DNA from: Providencia sneebia DSM 19967
Lineage (GTDB): Bacteria > Pseudomonadota > Gammaproteobacteria > Enterobacterales > Enterobacteriaceae
Direction: 5' to 3'
NCBI RefSeq assembly: GCF_000314895.2
Contig: NZ_CM001773.1
Coordinates: 3,792,780-3,856,779 of the forward strand
DNA: 64,000 nucleotides
Both the position numbers and the translations under genes were made by a program. Below the pieces are notes generated by a model. That model did not search any database. It was not told the origin of the DNA and saw only the letters and a list, made by a program, of their open reading frames with translations. Within the stretch, counting starts at the first letter, position 1. Every line of letters begins with the position of its first letter. Below, piece after piece: positions 17,178-25,382 of this stretch.

Positions 17178-17308
17178 ATATCCCGCATCGCTAGCATGGA
17201 GTTGATTAGCAATCTATGTTCAGTGATTTATCAAGGGATAGCAATATTGCTTACTGATTTACATCACAGAATAATTGAATTTGTCTCTTTTCTGTTTGAC
17301 TCTGTACT

Positions 17309-17351
17309 CTGACTCCGTTAACTTCCGCGCTGTATACAAATAAACATAACG
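17309..17351 (+). promoter_or_regulatory. ModE-type box over a candidate promoter of the MolABC-like operon
   Basis: At 17328-17351 lies CGCTGTAT-N8-ACATAACG, the same 24-bp format as the E. coli modA operator, with half-sites close to CGnTATAT. A possible -35 (CTGACT, 17309-17314) and -10 (TATACA, 17333-17338) with an 18-base spacer put the -10 inside the box, which would give repression by molybdate-bound ModE. The box is seen directly; the promoter is a weak call. Confidence 0.7.
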
Positions 17352-17368
17352 AAATAAGTATTAATATT

Positions 17369-18403
17369 ATGGGAATCAATCGAAGATACTTCCTTAAATC
17401 TTGTGCTGCACTCGCCGCGCTTTACTATTTACCTGCCTATAGTAAAACCGAGCTGCCCGTTGAAGAAGCGCTTTTTGGAACTTTACCTGCACCTGTAGAT
17501 ATTTGTAGAGTCATCAGTTCTGGTCCGCCAGCTGATTTGCTCTTATTTGCTATAGCACCTGAAAAAATGGTGGGATTTTCTGCCATTAATTTACAAAAAG
17601 GTCATTCAGAGCTATTTGCTAAAGAATGGCGTGATTTGCCTATTTACGGTAGATTAGCTGGTCGTGGTAGCACACTTTCCTTAGAAAAATTACTCGATTA
17701 TTCTCCGCAATTAATTATAGATACCGGCAATATTGATGAGACATATCGTTCTCAAGCCGAAAAAGTGGCTAATCAAACAGGTATTCCTTATTTATTGCTT
17801 GTGGGTAATTTACAAGATTCACCGCAACAATTGCATCAACTCGGAAAAGTGCTTAGTGTCGATCAACAAGCACAAATGCTTAGTGAGGTTGCTAATCGCT
17901 ACTTACAAGATGCTAGGCAATTCGCTAAAAGCAAAAATGAGCAACCGAGTTTTTACTTAGCAAGAGGCGCCAAAGGCTTAGAAACAGGGACTCAAGGCTC
18001 TATTCATACTGAAGCAATAGAAACTCTTGGTTTTCGTAATGTTGCGAATATACCCGGGTTTAAAGGGCTAACCACAGTTTCCATGGAACAATTGTATGAA
18101 TGGAACCCTGATATCATTATTACCCAATATGAAGAAGCAACTGAACTGATTAAACAATCAGCCTTATGGCAAGGCCTGACTGCCGTTTCATCCCATAAAT
18201 TACTCACCTTTACAGGAATGCCTTTTGGTTGGTTAGATGGCCCTCCGGGTATTAACCGTTTATTGGGAATGCGCAGGCTACAAAGCCATTTTGATCCGCA
18301 AGTTGCTAAAACTATTCGTGATGATATTAAGCAGTTCTTTGATCTGTTTTATCACTCTTCATTGACTGACACTCAACTTGATATGCTAATGGATAAGTCA
18401 TGA
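17369..18403 (+). CDS. MolA/FecB-type periplasmic substrate-binding protein (Tat or Sec exported)
   Basis: The 344-aa product begins MGINRRYFLKSCAALAALYYLPAYS, an export signal with an RRxFLK twin-arginine motif. The rest is a class III (PF01497 type) binding protein as used with FecCD/BtuC permeases, with LEKLLDYSPQLIIDTGN in the N lobe and WNPDIIITQYEEATELIKQSALWQGL in the C lobe. It heads a tight operon with permease, ATPase, methyltransferase and modD, and a ModE-type box lies 17 bases before the ATG. Haemophilus MolABC shows that this transporter type can carry molybdate or tungstate. A free oxyanion or a metal-chelate are both possible ligands. Confidence 0.85.
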   Translation: MGINRRYFLKSCAALAALYYLPAYSKTELPVEEALFGTLPAPVDICRVISSGPPADLLLFAIAPEKMVGFSAINLQKGHSELFAKEWRDLPIYGRLAGRGSTLSLEKLLDYSPQLIIDTGNIDETYRSQAEKVANQTGIPYLLLVGNLQDSPQQLHQLGKVLSVDQQAQMLSEVANRYLQDARQFAKSKNEQPSFYLARGAKGLETGTQGSIHTEAIETLGFRNVANIPGFKGLTTVSMEQLYEWNPDIIITQYEEATELIKQSALWQGLTAVSSHKLLTFTGMPFGWLDGPPGINRLLGMRRLQSHFDPQVAKTIRDDIKQFFDLFYHSSLTDTQLDMLMDKS

Positions 18404-19404
18404 GTCGCACCCTAAAGCTACTATTGCTTATTATGATTTTTATCATCAGTTTTGGCATAGCTTTATAAAGTGGTAAGTACTCACTTACAATAAGCCAACT
18501 CTTCCAACTATTTGCCTCAGAATTTAGTCATCAAACTGTTATTGATGATCCCCGGAATGCCACTGTATTTTGGCAGATTCGTTTTCCTCGCACACTGGCG
18601 GCTATTTTAATTGGTGGTGGATTAGCCATTGCAGGTGCGGCTTATCAAGGCATGTTTCGTAATCCTTTGGTTTCCCCTGATATCTTGGGCGTTTCCGCTG
18701 GAGCGGGTGTGGGTGCTGTCATTGGTATCTTTTTTAGCCAATCTCTAATTTATATCCAGATAGCGGCATTTATTGGTGGATTACTTGCTGTTAGCTTGGT
18801 CTGTTTAATTGCTCGTATGGCTCGCCAACACGACCCCATATTATCATTAGTGCTCGTTGGTGTGGCGATTAGTGCATTGTGTGGCTCTGCAATCTCCTTA
18901 ATGAAGATATTAGCGGATCCTTATACTCAGCTTCCATCAATCACCTTTTGGCTCCTTGGCGGCCTGTCATCCATCACACAAAGCGATCTGTTATCTGCAT
19001 TACCCATTATGTTACTTGGTATCATTCCATTGTTATTATTGCGCTGGAGAATGAATTTACTCAGTTTATCTGATGAAGAAGCCAGAAGTCTTGGTATCAA
19101 TGTGACTGTAATCCGTGCCATCTTTATTGTGTCTGCAACATTAATTACAGCAAGTGCGGTATCCATTGCCGGCATCATTGGTTGGATAGGTTTAATTGTC
19201 CCACATATTACCAGAATGATAGTGGGTGCTAACTTTCGCTATCAGCTACCAGCATCAATGGCAATTGGTGCAATCATGTTACTAATTACAGATACTCTTG
19301 CAAGAACCATTGCCTCAATTGAGCTTCCTTTAGGTATATTAACCTCTGCGGTTGGTGCGCCTTTCTTTTTAGCTATCTTGCTACAAACACGGAGAGCTAA
19401 ATGA
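18400..19404 (+). pseudogene. FecCD/MolB-type ABC permease with in-frame stop at codon 23
   Basis: The frame starts at the ATG overlapping the upstream stop (ATGA) and would encode 334 aa, normal for FecCD permeases. Codon 23 is TAA (18466-18468), in the middle of the first membrane helix and just before SGKYSLTISQLF, where related proteins read straight on. All later family marks are intact and in frame: FWQIRFPRTLAAILIGGGLAIAGAAYQGMFRNPLVSPDILGVSAGAG and GWIGLIVPHITRMIVGANF. The first ATG after the stop (18652) would lose two membrane segments. With a single substitution and no other damage, this is a very recent mutation, a read-through case or a sequence error. Confidence 0.85.
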
Positions 19405-20168
19405 GCCTAATTAGCGTCAAAGATGTCGCAATTGGTTACCATCATCAACCTATCATTGAACATATTAATCTTGAATTACAACAAGGTCTGATGACGTGCC
19501 TCTTAGGGGCTAATGGCTGTGGTAAAACAACCTTAATGAAAACATTGTTAGGATTACTTCCTACCATTCATGGTGAAATTCGACTCAAAAATAAACCCAT
19601 AACGGCCTATAAAGCTGTCGAAATTGCAAAAATTATTGCTTATGTTCCCCAAGCCCATGATACGCCGTTTACATTTACTGTCATTGATATGGTAATGATG
19701 GGGTTGACTCCGCATATTTCGTTATTTTCTGCGCCCGGCGCTAAAGAGCGGGCTTTAGGGCAACAGCAACTTGAACGATTAGGCATCGAACATCTTCAAT
19801 ATCGATTATATAGCACGCTAAGTGGTGGGGAAAAACAGCTAGTATTAATTGCACGTGCGTTAGTACAAAATCCATTAATGCTAATTATGGATGAACCCGC
19901 CGCCAGCCTTGATTTTGGTAATCAAATCAGATTATTAAACCAAATAGAACAGCTTAAAAAGCAAGGTATTACGGTATTAATGTCAACCCATCATCCACAA
20001 CATGCAGCGATCATAGCTGATAACGTGATCTTACTTGATAAAAAGCATGGCGCAAGACAAGGTAGCACATCAAGTATGTTAACACTTACTAACTTAGCAG
20101 AGCTTTACTCTATTGATGAGCAAAGTATCGCTGCACATGTTCAATTCTCTTCTCATTTTACTTGCTAG
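19401..20168 (+). CDS. MolC/FecE-type ABC transporter ATPase
   Basis: The 255-aa ATP-binding subunit has Walker A GANGCGKTTLMK, Q-loop YVPQAH, signature LSGGEKQLVLIARAL, Walker B LMLIMDEPAASLD and the H-loop STHHPQHA. The segment MVMMGLTPHISLFSAPGAKE has the form seen in Haemophilus MolC and FecE-like ATPases that couple to FecCD permeases. The start overlaps the permease stop by four bases. It would power import of the ligand delivered by the binding protein. It is intact although the permease gene is interrupted. Confidence 0.92.
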   Translation: MSLISVKDVAIGYHHQPIIEHINLELQQGLMTCLLGANGCGKTTLMKTLLGLLPTIHGEIRLKNKPITAYKAVEIAKIIAYVPQAHDTPFTFTVIDMVMMGLTPHISLFSAPGAKERALGQQQLERLGIEHLQYRLYSTLSGGEKQLVLIARALVQNPLMLIMDEPAASLDFGNQIRLLNQIEQLKKQGITVLMSTHHPQHAAIIADNVILLDKKHGARQGSTSSMLTLTNLAELYSIDEQSIAAHVQFSSHFTC

Positions 20169-20178
20169 GGGCAGATTT

Positions 20179-20997
20179 ATGCTTATTCACCAATTAGATT
20201 TTGCCAAGATGTACCAAGAACATATGCGACAAGCACAACGTACACGTAAAGAACCTGAACATTGGGATAAAAGAGCACAACAAATGGCTAAAAATTGCGC
20301 TAATCCTAATGATCCATATCTCATCCGGTTTCGTCAGTTAATGGATTTTACGGGTGCGAAAACATTGTTAGATGTTGGCTGTGGGCCTGGTTCAATTGCA
20401 TTAAGTCTCGCAAATCAATTTCAATCCGTTATCGGTATTGATTACAGCATTGGCATGTTGCATGCCGCTAAAGAACGCGCGAATGATTTGAATATCCATA
20501 ATGTGGAATTTGAACAAATAGCTTGGGAAGATAGTTGGGAAAACTTGCCGAAAGTCGATATCTCAGTCGCTTCTCGCTCAACGTTAGTTGATGATTTACA
20601 AGCAGCTTTACTGAAATTAAACCGACAAACTCGCCTGCGTGTTTATACCACTCATACCTTAAATCCAACATTTATTGATGAAAACATCATTAATGCAATT
20701 GGCCGTGAAGTGATCCGTCTACCAACATATATTTATGCTGTGAATATTCTCCATCAAATGGGGATCAGAGCTAAGGTCAATTTTATTAAAAGCCCAAATA
20801 TAGGCGGTTTTGATAGCTTCGATGCTTTTGTTGATAGCGTGAATTGGTCTTTAAAAGATCTCACACAAGATGAAACGGATAAATTACGTGCCTATTATGA
20901 TAAACGCGTTGCATTAGGGCAGACAATTCCTTATCCATCAAGAGATTGGGCAATGGTTTCATGGGATGTTGTCGATGAAGCGGATTTAACAATATGA
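20179..20997 (+). CDS. Class I SAM-dependent methyltransferase of the molybdate-type operon
   Basis: With the ATG at 20179 (AGGGG upstream; longer frames lack a site) the protein has 272 aa. The Rossmann motif I is TLLDVGCGPGSIALSLA, followed by VIGIDYSIGMLHAAKERA, both standard for class I methyltransferases. The C-terminal half (VDSVNWSLKDLTQDETDKLRAYYDKRV) is unlike common ubiquinone or rRNA methylases. It lies between the ABC ATPase and modD with very short spacing, so it is part of the unit. Methylation of a metal chelator is an inference; the substrate is unknown. Confidence 0.82.
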   Translation: MLIHQLDFAKMYQEHMRQAQRTRKEPEHWDKRAQQMAKNCANPNDPYLIRFRQLMDFTGAKTLLDVGCGPGSIALSLANQFQSVIGIDYSIGMLHAAKERANDLNIHNVEFEQIAWEDSWENLPKVDISVASRSTLVDDLQAALLKLNRQTRLRVYTTHTLNPTFIDENIINAIGREVIRLPTYIYAVNILHQMGIRAKVNFIKSPNIGGFDSFDAFVDSVNWSLKDLTQDETDKLRAYYDKRVALGQTIPYPSRDWAMVSWDVVDEADLTI

Positions 20998-21836
20998 TTT
21001 ATATTTCAGATAATTTTATCGACCAACTTCTGTTAGATGATATTCAATATGGTGATCTCACCACTCGTTCACTTGGGCTTCAACGCCAACAAGGTGTCAT
21101 GACATTTACGTCAAAAAAGGGTGGCTGTGTCAGTGGAATGAATATTGCCATGCGCATGCTAAATAAACTTAGTATTGAGTGCCAAGGTTTTTATCAAGAG
21201 GGTGAAATTGTCGAACCAAATAGCTGTTTAATAACCGCCTCAGGTTCTATAGAAGCACTTCATCAAGGTTGGAAAGCCGTTCAAAATGTGCTTGAGTGGT
21301 GCGGTGGTGTCAGCCATTATACTTACCAAATGGTAACACAACTTCAGCAATATCAACCTGATGGCCAATTAGCCTGCACGCGAAAATCAATTCCTGCCAC
21401 AAAACCATTAGCATTGACAGCAATTATTGCTGGAGGCGCAATCATTCATAGAGCAGGTAGCGCAGAAAGTATTTTATTGTTTACTAACCATCGAAATTGC
21501 CTTGCTGACCCAAATGATTGGCAGTCCCATATCCAACAATTAAGAACAGCGGCTCCCGAAAAACAGATTATTGTCGAAGCTGATAATATTGAACAAACTT
21601 ATCTCGCATTAGCCGCGAAAGCCGACATTATTCAACTTGATAAATTTACACCGCAGCAAGTACATCAATTACAGCAAGAAATAGATAAGCACCAATATTC
21701 GTGCCGTTTATCTGTTGCGGGTGGAATTAATCTACAAACAATAGCGGAATATGCAAAAACAGGCGTAACTATTTTTGTAACGTCAGCGCCTTACTACGCA
21801 CCACCTAGAGATATAAAAGTCCATATTTCCACATAA
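20994..21836 (+). CDS. modD: ModD, pyrophosphorylase-like molybdenum-transport-associated protein
   Basis: The 280-aa protein is homologous to quinolinate phosphoribosyltransferase (NadC) but of the ModD subgroup: LLLDDIQYGDLTTRSLG at the start, LEWCGGVSHYTYQMV, the ACTRKSIPATKPLAL strand in place of the NadC TRKT motif, and a C-terminal VAGGINLQTIAEYAKTGVTIFVTSAPYYAPP. ModD genes occur with molybdate transport operons, but no activity is established. The start overlaps the methyltransferase stop by four bases. Its presence is independent support, beside the ModE-type boxes, for molybdenum or tungsten as the transported metal. Confidence 0.9.
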   Translation: MIYISDNFIDQLLLDDIQYGDLTTRSLGLQRQQGVMTFTSKKGGCVSGMNIAMRMLNKLSIECQGFYQEGEIVEPNSCLITASGSIEALHQGWKAVQNVLEWCGGVSHYTYQMVTQLQQYQPDGQLACTRKSIPATKPLALTAIIAGGAIIHRAGSAESILLFTNHRNCLADPNDWQSHIQQLRTAAPEKQIIVEADNIEQTYLALAAKADIIQLDKFTPQQVHQLQQEIDKHQYSCRLSVAGGINLQTIAEYAKTGVTIFVTSAPYYAPPRDIKVHIST

Positions 21837-21862
21837 TATCGCCAATACGCTAAAACAAATTT

Positions 21863-21896
21863 GAACCTCATCAGCTTTATTGCGCTGGTGGAGTTC
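21863..21896 (+). other. Intercistronic hairpin between modD and the TonB receptor gene
   Basis: GAACCTCATCAGC (21863-21875) pairs with GCTGGTGGAGTTC (21884-21896) with one mismatch and two G-U pairs. There is no following U run. It may separate the operon from the receptor transcript or stabilise the upstream mRNA. Confidence 0.5.
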
Positions 21897-21919
21897 CTGA
21901 TTTATATAACGACATCTAT

Positions 21920-21943
21920 CGATATATAAAAAATAATATAACG
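21920..21943. promoter_or_regulatory. Perfect ModE-type palindrome upstream of the TonB receptor
   Basis: CGATATAT-N8-ATATAACG: both half-sites fit CGnTATAT exactly, and the spacing equals that of the box at 17328-17351. It ends 17 bases before the receptor ATG, the same distance as at the binding-protein gene. Repression of the outer-membrane receptor by ModE-molybdate is the direct reading. Confidence 0.8.
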
Positions 21944-21960
21944 AATGACTGGAATTTAAA

Positions 21961-23973
21961 ATGAAAATAAAACAAATAACCTATTTGGTTGGGATGGCTT
22001 TATTTACCACACATAGCTTTGCCACCACCACAGAAGAAGATAAAACCAATAAAGACGTCATGATGGTTTGGAGCACCCCGCTTGCTGCTGACGAAAACAT
22101 CATCACTCAATCGCAAATGAAGCAGCTCAATAAAACGAATGTTGCTCAAGCACTAAGCACAATGCCTGGGGTAGTGATCCAAAAATCAGGTAACCGCAAT
22201 GAAACGCAAGTTAATGTGCGTGGCTTTGATAGCCGACAAGTTCCAATCTTCTTTGATGGCATTCCAACTTATGTTCCCTATGATGGCACACTTGACCTTG
22301 GGCGCTTTATGACAAGCGAGCTATCGAGTGTTGAGCTATCAACAGGTTACACATCATTATTGCAAGGCCCTAACTTAATGGGTGGCGCAATTAACTTAAC
22401 CACTGCTACGCCTAAAAAACCATTAGAAGCAGATATCAGCTTAAATCAAGGTTTTGCGCGCGGTGCAGATAATGCCCATAACATTAGCGCTAGATTAGGT
22501 GGTAGAAATGACCTTGGCTTTATTCAAGTCAGTGGAAGTCAATATAAACAACGTTTCATGGGGTTACCTGACTCAGCGGATAATAACCCATTAGCAGGTA
22601 GCCATGGACGCCGTACAAATTCAGCAACAGATGATAAACGCCTAATGCTCAAAATGGGCTGGACGCCACGTGAAGCCGATGAATATGTAGTGACTTATTT
22701 AAAGCAAGATGGTGATAAAAATAGTGCGCCTAGTGCTGATAATAAAAAGCAACAAATTTGGCAGTGGCCAGAATATGACAAAGAAAGTTACTACTTTAAT
22801 GGTACAACACAGATCACTAACGATATAGCACTACAAAGCCGCCTATATCACGATAAATTTATTAATACATTACACCAATATAAATCTGTTCAGGATTATA
22901 AAGACGGCAAATTTAACTACAGCCATTATGATGATTACAGTAATGGCGCAGATATGCGTGTTGACTTTACACTCCGAGAACTGGATATGTTGTCCTTTGC
23001 CGCTCACTGGAAGGAAGATGTTCACCGTGCGCGCAGTAACAAATCTGTTCCTTATGGTCGCTATAAAGATCAAACTTGGTCAGTCGCAACTGAATACCAA
23101 TGGGTTGCAACGAATAACCTCGATATTATTGGCGGTATTGGTTATGACTGGCGCAATAGTGATGATGGCAAACGTTATCTATACAACAAAAAAAATGTTG
23201 TTACCGGCATTGAAACCTATGACGATAATAGCCAACATGCATTTAATTGGGAACTGATGGCACGCTACCACCTAGAAAATAGTGACACCATTCAATTCTC
23301 CGTTTCTGATAGAAGCCGCTTCCCAACTCAAAAAGAGCGCTATACCAAAAATAAAATGAAAAATAATGATAGCTTTATCATTAACCCTCATTTAGATGCA
23401 GAACACGCCCTGACCTTCGATCTCACTTATAAAGGGATGATAACGCCTGATTGGTCATACAATGCTAGCGCTTATTATAATCATGTTTCTGATGCCATTA
23501 TGGCGCATTATATGGGGTATAACGCTGCTGAAGATTCTGATGTTTACCAAAACCGTAATAGCGGTAAAGTGAATTATGCTGGGATTGATTTAGGAACAAA
23601 TGGCACAATAACTGATTGGATGGCAGTAGGATTAAGCTATAGTTATATTCACGCTGACCCTAAACATAAGAGCGTACGCCATGTGGCAGAATTACCAACA
23701 AATAAAGCTTTTGCTTGGGTTAAATTTACGCCTTATGAACCACTTAATATAACGATTACTGAAGAAGCTAGAAATTGGGGTTATAACAATATTGAAAGCA
23801 ATGAAAAAGTCAGTGGTTTCGCTAAAACAGACCTACGTTTAGATTATAATTTAGGCCATGGTGTTTCTATTAATACCTCTATTAATAACTTATTTGATAA
23901 ATCATATCAATATACTGCGGGTTATATTGAAGAAGGCCGTAATTATTGGTTAGGTATCGATTATAAATATTAA
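21961..23973 (+). CDS. TonB-dependent outer-membrane receptor, predicted molybdate/metallophore receptor
   Basis: The 670-aa protein has a signal peptide (MKIKQITYLVGMALFTTHSFA) and a TonB-box-like VMMVWSTP near the mature N-terminus. The plug domain reads ALSTMPGVVIQKSGNRNETQVNVRGFDSRQVPIFFDGIP and GPNLMGGAINLTT. A 22-strand-type barrel follows, closing with INTSINNLFDKSYQYTAGYIEEGRNYWLGIDYKY. The final residue is tyrosine rather than the commoner phenylalanine. It should import a large or scarce ligand using TonB energy and hand it to the binding protein encoded upstream. Ligand assignment rests on the ModE-type box and on modD, not on the receptor sequence. Confidence 0.92.
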   Translation: MKIKQITYLVGMALFTTHSFATTTEEDKTNKDVMMVWSTPLAADENIITQSQMKQLNKTNVAQALSTMPGVVIQKSGNRNETQVNVRGFDSRQVPIFFDGIPTYVPYDGTLDLGRFMTSELSSVELSTGYTSLLQGPNLMGGAINLTTATPKKPLEADISLNQGFARGADNAHNISARLGGRNDLGFIQVSGSQYKQRFMGLPDSADNNPLAGSHGRRTNSATDDKRLMLKMGWTPREADEYVVTYLKQDGDKNSAPSADNKKQQIWQWPEYDKESYYFNGTTQITNDIALQSRLYHDKFINTLHQYKSVQDYKDGKFNYSHYDDYSNGADMRVDFTLRELDMLSFAAHWKEDVHRARSNKSVPYGRYKDQTWSVATEYQWVATNNLDIIGGIGYDWRNSDDGKRYLYNKKNVVTGIETYDDNSQHAFNWELMARYHLENSDTIQFSVSDRSRFPTQKERYTKNKMKNNDSFIINPHLDAEHALTFDLTYKGMITPDWSYNASAYYNHVSDAIMAHYMGYNAAEDSDVYQNRNSGKVNYAGIDLGTNGTITDWMAVGLSYSYIHADPKHKSVRHVAELPTNKAFAWVKFTPYEPLNITITEEARNWGYNNIESNEKVSGFAKTDLRLDYNLGHGVSINTSINNLFDKSYQYTAGYIEEGRNYWLGIDYKY

Positions 23974-24425: not shown

Positions 24426-25382
24426 GTGTCCATGATAAAACATAAGAATTACCTTATTAATAATAAATTTGTATTTGAGATAAATAAGAGCCTTATTATT
24501 TTAAAAGATAATACGGACAAATTTGTTGAATTATCAAAACCTGCATCTCGATTACTTAAGGAAATTATTCTTTTAAACCAACAATCTAGAATAGCAACCC
24601 GTGAAGAATTACTTTCCAAAGTATGGGAACAATATGGTCTTGTTAGCTCTAATAATAACCTAAGCACCTATATTAGTGAGATTAGAAAGAAATTAAAAAA
24701 AATAGGGATAAATCCTAAATCAATAATTACAATACCCAAAAGAGGTTTCCGTTTCGAAGGTGAAGTCGAAGAAATAATACCTGAGGAAATTAACACATTA
24801 ACAACACATCAGGAAATTATCATACGTGGTGATAATGAACCAAGAACAGAAGAAATAAATAATACCTCTTCTCCTTTAAATATCATCAATTCAGATAACC
24901 AATCTACTCGTTTAGATGAAGATGTGAACTATTATACACCTGGACCTAACAATCCATTATTAGCACTAGCAAATATTGAAAAGCCAACAACACCTGTAAT
25001 TAAGAAGAATAAAAAAGTAAAAAATATCTATATTTTATTATCCACCGCTATGCTATTTATCATTTTATTAACACTATTTTTTCATTTCATGAAGTTTTCC
25101 GGTGATAATATGGAAATAAAAAATTATATCACTGCCAGTGAACGTGATCAGTGTATTATTCAAGTGCCAGCAACATTACTTGATAAAACAATCAGTGAAA
25201 ACATTAATATAATAAATAAAAAGCTCGATAAATATAATGTTTCTTGTGATGAACCAAAACGTGTCGTGTTACTTTCAGACCCAAGCATTGCACCAGATAA
25301 TGACAAAAATATTTCGCTTAGTATCTGTAAAGACAAAAATGATAAATATGACTGTATTTCAATTAATGATCAGAGAATTTAA
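24426..25382 (+). CDS. MarT/CadC/ToxR-type membrane-anchored transcriptional activator
   Basis: The 318-aa protein has an N-terminal OmpR-type winged helix (about residues 5-110: ATREELLSKVWEQYGLVSSNNNLSTYISEIRKKL and IITIPKRGFRFEGEV). A polar linker, one membrane segment (NIYILLSTAMLFIILLTLFFHFM) and a periplasmic tail of about 100 residues with cysteines follow. The start is GTG 24426 with GAGAG seven bases upstream; ATG 24432 is an alternative. It is followed without a gap by a FidL-like gene, the marT-fidL arrangement of Salmonella SPI-3. It faces a fimbrial operon, which is the likely target. DNA is bound from the membrane in response to a periplasmic signal not identifiable here. Confidence 0.85.
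   Translation: MSMIKHKNYLINNKFVFEINKSLIILKDNTDKFVELSKPASRLLKEIILLNQQSRIATREELLSKVWEQYGLVSSNNNLSTYISEIRKKLKKIGINPKSIITIPKRGFRFEGEVEEIIPEEINTLTTHQEIIIRGDNEPRTEEINNTSSPLNIINSDNQSTRLDEDVNYYTPGPNNPLLALANIEKPTTPVIKKNKKVKNIYILLSTAMLFIILLTLFFHFMKFSGDNMEIKNYITASERDQCIIQVPATLLDKTISENINIINKKLDKYNVSCDEPKRVVLLSDPSIAPDNDKNISLSICKDKNDKYDCISINDQRI

Follow-up and report, generated by a model that had tools for sequence, protein, structure and literature searches.

A gene cluster in a 64-kb stretch of the Providencia sneebia DSM 19967 genome (the window) probably encodes an importer that carries scarce or chelated molybdenum, tungsten remaining a candidate metal, from the outer membrane across the inner membrane under repression by ModE. 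The cluster (positions 17309-23973) comprises, in order, a ModE-type box (box 1, 17328..17351, unstranded) and genes for a substrate-binding protein (SBP) of the helical-hinge class (Peripla_BP_2, 17369..18403), a FecCD-type permease (18400..19404), an ATP-binding cassette (ABC) ATPase (19401..20168), a class I S-adenosylmethionine (SAM)-dependent methyltransferase (20179..20997) and ModD, a quinolinate phosphoribosyltransferase homologue with an altered pocket (20994..21836), followed by a second ModE-type box (box 2, 21920..21943, unstranded) and the gene for a PrrA-type TonB-dependent outer-membrane receptor (21961..23973), all six genes lying on the forward strand. The MolABC-like ABC genes, modD, methyltransferase and TonB receptor listed in an initial annotation of this DNA were all recovered by family profile matches, with ModD reaching 375.7 bits against TIGR01334 (cut-off 178.85) and the receptor matching both the plug (PF07715, 71.2 bits) and the beta-barrel (PF00593, 89.6 bits) profiles. 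Together, the permease, the ATPase and the helical-hinge SBP form a complete importer set of the MolBCA type.

The two boxes are 24-bp palindromes that the initial annotation had placed correctly, each ending 17 nt before an ATG (17369 and 21961). We scored them with an operator matrix built from the modA operators of relatives and of Escherichia coli K-12 and containing no site from this cluster (21 modA upstream regions were examined, from which L038 was dropped because its modA start was unmatched and three duplicates were merged, leaving 17 distinct operators with leave-one-out scores of 20.0-27.5 bits). Over the 64 kb, this matrix ranked box 2 (CGATATAT-N8-ATATAACG, 24.3 bits) first and box 1 (CGCTGTAT-N8-ACATAACG, 23.3 bits) second, the third-best site scoring 13.1 bits, and none of 60 windows simulated with an order-2 Markov model contained a site scoring as high, which argues that the boxes are not chance occurrences. 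The same 24-bp design is found in the modA operator of the strain's own genome (CGCTGTAT-N8-ATATAGCG) and in that of K-12 (CGTTATAT-N8-ACATAACG), a site established as an operator by experiment. Both window promoters carry an operator resembling the ModE consensus ATCGNTATATA-N6-TATATANCGAT, as quoted in the portion of PMC545781 consulted. As a caveat, a strict pattern search of the strain's own genome returned box 2 alone, the reversed control pattern also yielding one site, and the relaxed exact pattern CGNTRTAT-N8-ATAYANCG missed box 1, owing to a right half (ACATAACG) that K-12 modA has too. By sequence, boxes 1 and 2 are nonetheless confirmed as real ModE-type operators.

Additional support came from the conservation of this arrangement. 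A scan of named genomes gave 58 loci, of which 53 were used (L094-L146, from Enterobacterales and Shewanella) after one distant partial match and four near-chance matches had been dropped. With a threshold of at least 18 bits, 50 of the 51 assessable loci have a box ahead of the SBP gene (the miss being L112; two loci have no SBP region), and the receptor gene has a box of its own in 27 of 53, two more loci scoring 14.5 and 16.3 bits. Such boxes are present in Providencia, Proteus, Morganella, Pectobacterium and two of the three Shewanella loci, while in Citrobacter, Escherichia, Klebsiella, Raoultella, Serratia and Enterobacter the receptor gene lacks its own box and mostly sits close behind modD, presumably in the same operon. 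The sites are also highly localized: 77 of the 78 found in 1,135,048 positions fall in SBP or receptor upstream regions, and the last one (L125) lies just 5' of the methyltransferase gene at a locus in which no SBP, permease or ATPase was identified. The order SBP-permease-ATPase-methyltransferase-ModD-receptor is kept wherever the genes are present, the methyltransferase being found in 52 and ModD in 49 of the 53 loci (those without it are the three Shewanella loci and L122, which appears to be a decayed copy in a symbiont). Boxes, receptor, modD and methyltransferase co-occur across genomes, a combination that the initial annotation had proposed to look for. Two Pectobacterium loci have a molbindin gene next to the SBP gene; the genome of DSM 19967 also has a molbindin gene, which carries no box of its own. 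As a separate observation, a gene for a MOSC-domain (YiiM-like) protein lies directly 3' of the receptor gene in Klebsiella indica (L131:11709-12569).

Within the genus, box 2 is recognizable in all 24 genomes (that of DSM 19967 included) though the flanks diverge, its right half being degenerate in a few, and the receptor is present in all 23 other members at 80-90% identity (split into two pieces in G014). The pattern CGNTRTAT-N8-ATAYANCG occurs 89 times in these 24 genomes versus 4 times for the reversed control, and among the matches listed the sites outside the cluster include the upstream regions of modA and, in the one genome checked, of moaA (L188).

Distant receptor homologues point in the same direction. 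We collected 17 such loci from a class-wide search of 369 genomes (five distant receptor matches), a phylum-wide search of 398 genomes (ten matches: the strain's own, G024, two known already and six new) and six plasmid records hand-picked among 50 listed of 74. Eleven of them lie close to a box or to molybdenum genes and six to neither; a box of at least 16 bits lies no more than 450 nt upstream of eight of the 17 receptors, versus four among 301,704 positions elsewhere (Fisher p 6e-11). At L169, a modE gene (TIGR00637, 99.8 bits, cut-off 98.5) is divergent from the receptor gene with a 24.6-bit box between them, and genes for SBP, permease, ATPase and methyltransferase follow the receptor. 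At L182, the sequence just 5' of the receptor encodes a DNA-binding domain of the ModE type (38% identity by tblastn), with a 19.0-bit box in between. A P. aeruginosa plasmid (L156) carries a 26.2-bit box followed by receptor, molybdopterin oxidoreductase, moaA and narIJHG genes, and at L157 a 22.8-bit box stands 5' of an SBP gene located two genes upstream of the receptor. Elsewhere, modABC is divergent from the receptor gene with only a weak 8.5-bit site (L183), or modBC, ModD and molbindin genes share a 19-kb stretch with the receptor without a box (L168). Taken together, the conservation of the boxes, the ModE sequences beside two distant receptors (L169 and L182) and the modABC, ModD, molbindin or nar/moaA neighbours at some loci strongly support the proposal of the initial annotation that this TonB/ABC system is controlled by ModE and serves molybdenum or tungsten. 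Independently of this, the distant receptor homologues of three alphaproteobacteria (L157, L159 and L160) have genes for a di-heme oxidoreductase or a cytochrome c peroxidase in their vicinity, and a second ModE-like site (20.4 bits) lies near a DUF2478 gene in Methylorubrum (L159:15155).

We infer that ModE binds both boxes and represses the cluster. When cell molybdate is low, ModE would leave both boxes and open both promoters; the TonB receptor would then pull the metal compound across the outer membrane, the SBP-FecCD-ATPase importer would carry it inside, and the methyltransferase and ModD might modify the organic ligand and so release or handle the metal. With ample molybdate in the cell, ModE-molybdate would occupy the boxes and shut both promoters, box 1 probably overlapping the transcription start (judging by eye from the hexamers TTGACT and TTAACT). 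The common view is that molybdate requires no transporter in the outer membrane, and a conserved ModE-switched receptor would imply that some molybdenum or tungsten is fetched actively, probably in a bound form. As to the ligand itself, we favour a chelated or otherwise bound metal, with some confidence, over a bare oxyanion at trace level, which is a minority possibility, and over something else again, for which we see a small chance; that the substrate is a chelate on which the methyltransferase acts is a view we infer rather than observe. More tentatively still, the receptors may constitute a proteobacterial TonB family devoted to organically bound molybdenum and switched by ModE, with the methyltransferase and ModD stripping the metal by destroying its ligand. 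That ligand might be a foreign siderophore-like chelate or a pterin of the molybdenum cofactor (Moco) type, the methyltransferase blocking a chelating hydroxyl or thiol and ModD phosphoribosylating a ring acid. If so, O157:H7 and uropathogenic E. coli would use their prrA cluster to acquire molybdenum, not iron. The proposed importer offers testable roles for ModD and for an orphan methyltransferase.

One variant of this molybdenum reading, which we consider rather unlikely, is that bare trace molybdate or tungstate passes the receptor with no organic ligand, much as copper or manganese passes its metal receptor, the methyltransferase and ModD acting in downstream cofactor or storage chemistry. 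Weak sequence links to OprC and ZnuD would fit such a route, as would the TonB receptors for metal ions OprC and MnoT described in the part of PMC8602904 consulted and the handling of plain molybdate by MolBC-A described in that of PMC4031551, but a methyltransferase retained in nearly every named locus would be needless for the transport of a bare ion.

A different substrate has been suggested for the E. coli version of the cluster. Of 5,426 complete E. coli genomes, 2,102 gave a match to the cluster, including O157:H7 and CFT073; it was also seen in E. coli EcN_Sk, but not at that place in K-12. It is known as prrA-modD-yc73-fepC in uropathogenic CFT073 (ECs1693-1699 of O157:H7 Sakai, S-loop#83/OI#55) and has homologous genes in the same order as the window, the receptors being ~51% identical; the receptor gene follows close behind modD in E. 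coli, whereas it has its own box in the Providencia, Proteus, Morganella, Pectobacterium and Shewanella loci named above. The published accounts, in the portions consulted, give its role as possible iron uptake, and no mention of ModE or molybdate control was found in those portions. That the cluster takes up iron (as ferri-siderophore) or heme, with the boxes merely adding cross-control by molybdenum, appears improbable to us. No clear Fur box was seen in the window, the top match to the Fur consensus at both window promoters being 11/19; the region upstream of the SBP gene in EcN_Sk gave 13/19, and both values lie inside the range of shuffled sequences (9-13), although matches of 14-15/19 occur in five of the named loci. 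In addition, some receptors adjoin modE, modABC or nar/moaA, and ModD and molbindin are molybdenum-associated families. Our results would have the E. coli prrA cluster re-read from possible iron uptake to molybdenum.

A second variant of the molybdenum reading, salvage of Moco or its breakdown products, in which the methyltransferase would S-methylate a dithiolene-type ligand and thereby free the metal, is improbable. Bis-molybdopterin guanine dinucleotide (bis-MGD) is too large for porins, which speaks for such a route, as do the top Foldseek matches of the methyltransferase model, TmtA (whose record is titled S-methyltransferase) and GtmA, both of which act on gliotoxin thiols. However, with TM-scores of ~0.5 and root-mean-square (rms) deviations of 7.6-11.3, these predicted fold matches are not diagnostic, and the few annotated flanks showed no gene for pterin synthesis, save moaA at the distant P. 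aeruginosa receptor. Nor was a chelator-synthesis gene recognized in these few flanks, which do not amount to a systematic search. Finally, that some other regulator with ModE-like sites acts at the palindromes, the molybdenum link being accidental, is very improbable: modE is unreadable in this genome, but ModE is encoded in 23 of 23 other genus members, the boxes match modA operators both of K-12 and of the genomes in which they occur, and two of the distant receptors have modE or its DNA-binding domain as a neighbour.

In all 50 aligned ModDs (NadC numbering), Arg105 is replaced by Lys, Lys172 by Phe and Glu104 by Trp, while equivalents of Arg139, Lys140, His161, Arg162, Glu201 and Asp222 are kept. 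From these changes, the substrate of ModD is likely to differ from quinolinate, its chemistry possibly being the same as that of quinolinate phosphoribosyltransferase. Arg105 and Lys172 bind quinolinate in that enzyme, and with both replaced in 50 of 50 sequences an assignment of ModD as NadC was rejected. The methyltransferase belongs to a family of 474 proteins (E <= 1e-3) among 6,855 candidates. For the SBP, the structures nearest to the predicted fold are 4pag, 4hn9 and 4ovk, then MolA (3psa), to which it is only ~20% identical over the fold match.

Akin to the window cluster, several known systems combine some of these features. ModD (TIGR01334) of modABCD operons is of the same family, but the window ModD is instead encoded between the methyltransferase and the TonB receptor. 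The ModABC/ModE regulon of E. coli shares its operator design with the window boxes, and its regulator with the sister genomes; to our knowledge, it covers inner-membrane transport, Moco synthesis and enzymes, with no outer-membrane receptor. Likewise, we know of no TonB receptor, methyltransferase or ModD associated with MolBCA of Haemophilus influenzae (HI1470-1472). The published description of the latter, in the portion consulted, is of a low-affinity importer. T6SS-ModA-IcmP of P. aeruginosa has an outer-membrane step for molybdate in common with the proposed system, and a mention of a ModE box was not found in the part of PMC8602904 consulted.

Two features of DSM 19967 itself, both missed in the initial annotation, concern the state of the system in this strain. 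First, the permease frame contains a TAA at codon 23 (18466-18468), with no ATG, GTG or TTG start before 18652. The frame past the TAA stays highly similar to relatives, and the change is a recent one or a base error; because the permease is cut at this point, whereas 47 of the 52 named loci with a permease match have an uninterrupted N-terminal frame, the uptake system may be impaired in this strain, unless a base was misread. Second, modE gave no match in the readable part of the genome; in this assembly, 22 kb just upstream of modABC read N (G000:C1:1503024-1525058, outside the window). This run lies between tRNA-Lys genes and sequence unmatched in relatives, and gpmA and modF, which neighbour modE in a relative, likewise have no orthologue in the readable part.

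Some minor observations concern the surroundings of the cluster and other ModE-like sites. A gene for a LacI-type regulator (closest models GntR/IdnR) is divergent from the cluster and upstream of it, and a CRP/FNR-like sequence at 17255-17268 (TGATTTACATCACA) recurs in several Providencia loci between this gene and box 1. On the 3' side of the receptor gene, positions 24426-25382 encode a protein with a response-regulator-type winged-helix domain, present in most but not all of the Providencia loci compared and far less conserved than the cluster (best stretches ~39-71% identity). A further ModE-like palindrome, of the type CGTTATAT-N8-ATATAACG, is found in at least 20 of the 24 genus genomes, that of DSM 19967 lacking it by exact pattern. 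In the five loci compared (L192, L201, L205, L206 and L208), it lies near position 1500 with no adjacent long open reading frame (ORF), some 50 nt before a terminator-like hairpin with a T run (GGCCAGTATTTATACTGGC) on one strand, and in several of them an FNR-like sequence (TGATCAAGATCA) is present on its other side. The region, which had no Rfam match, is a candidate for encoding a small RNA controlled by ModE (and FNR).

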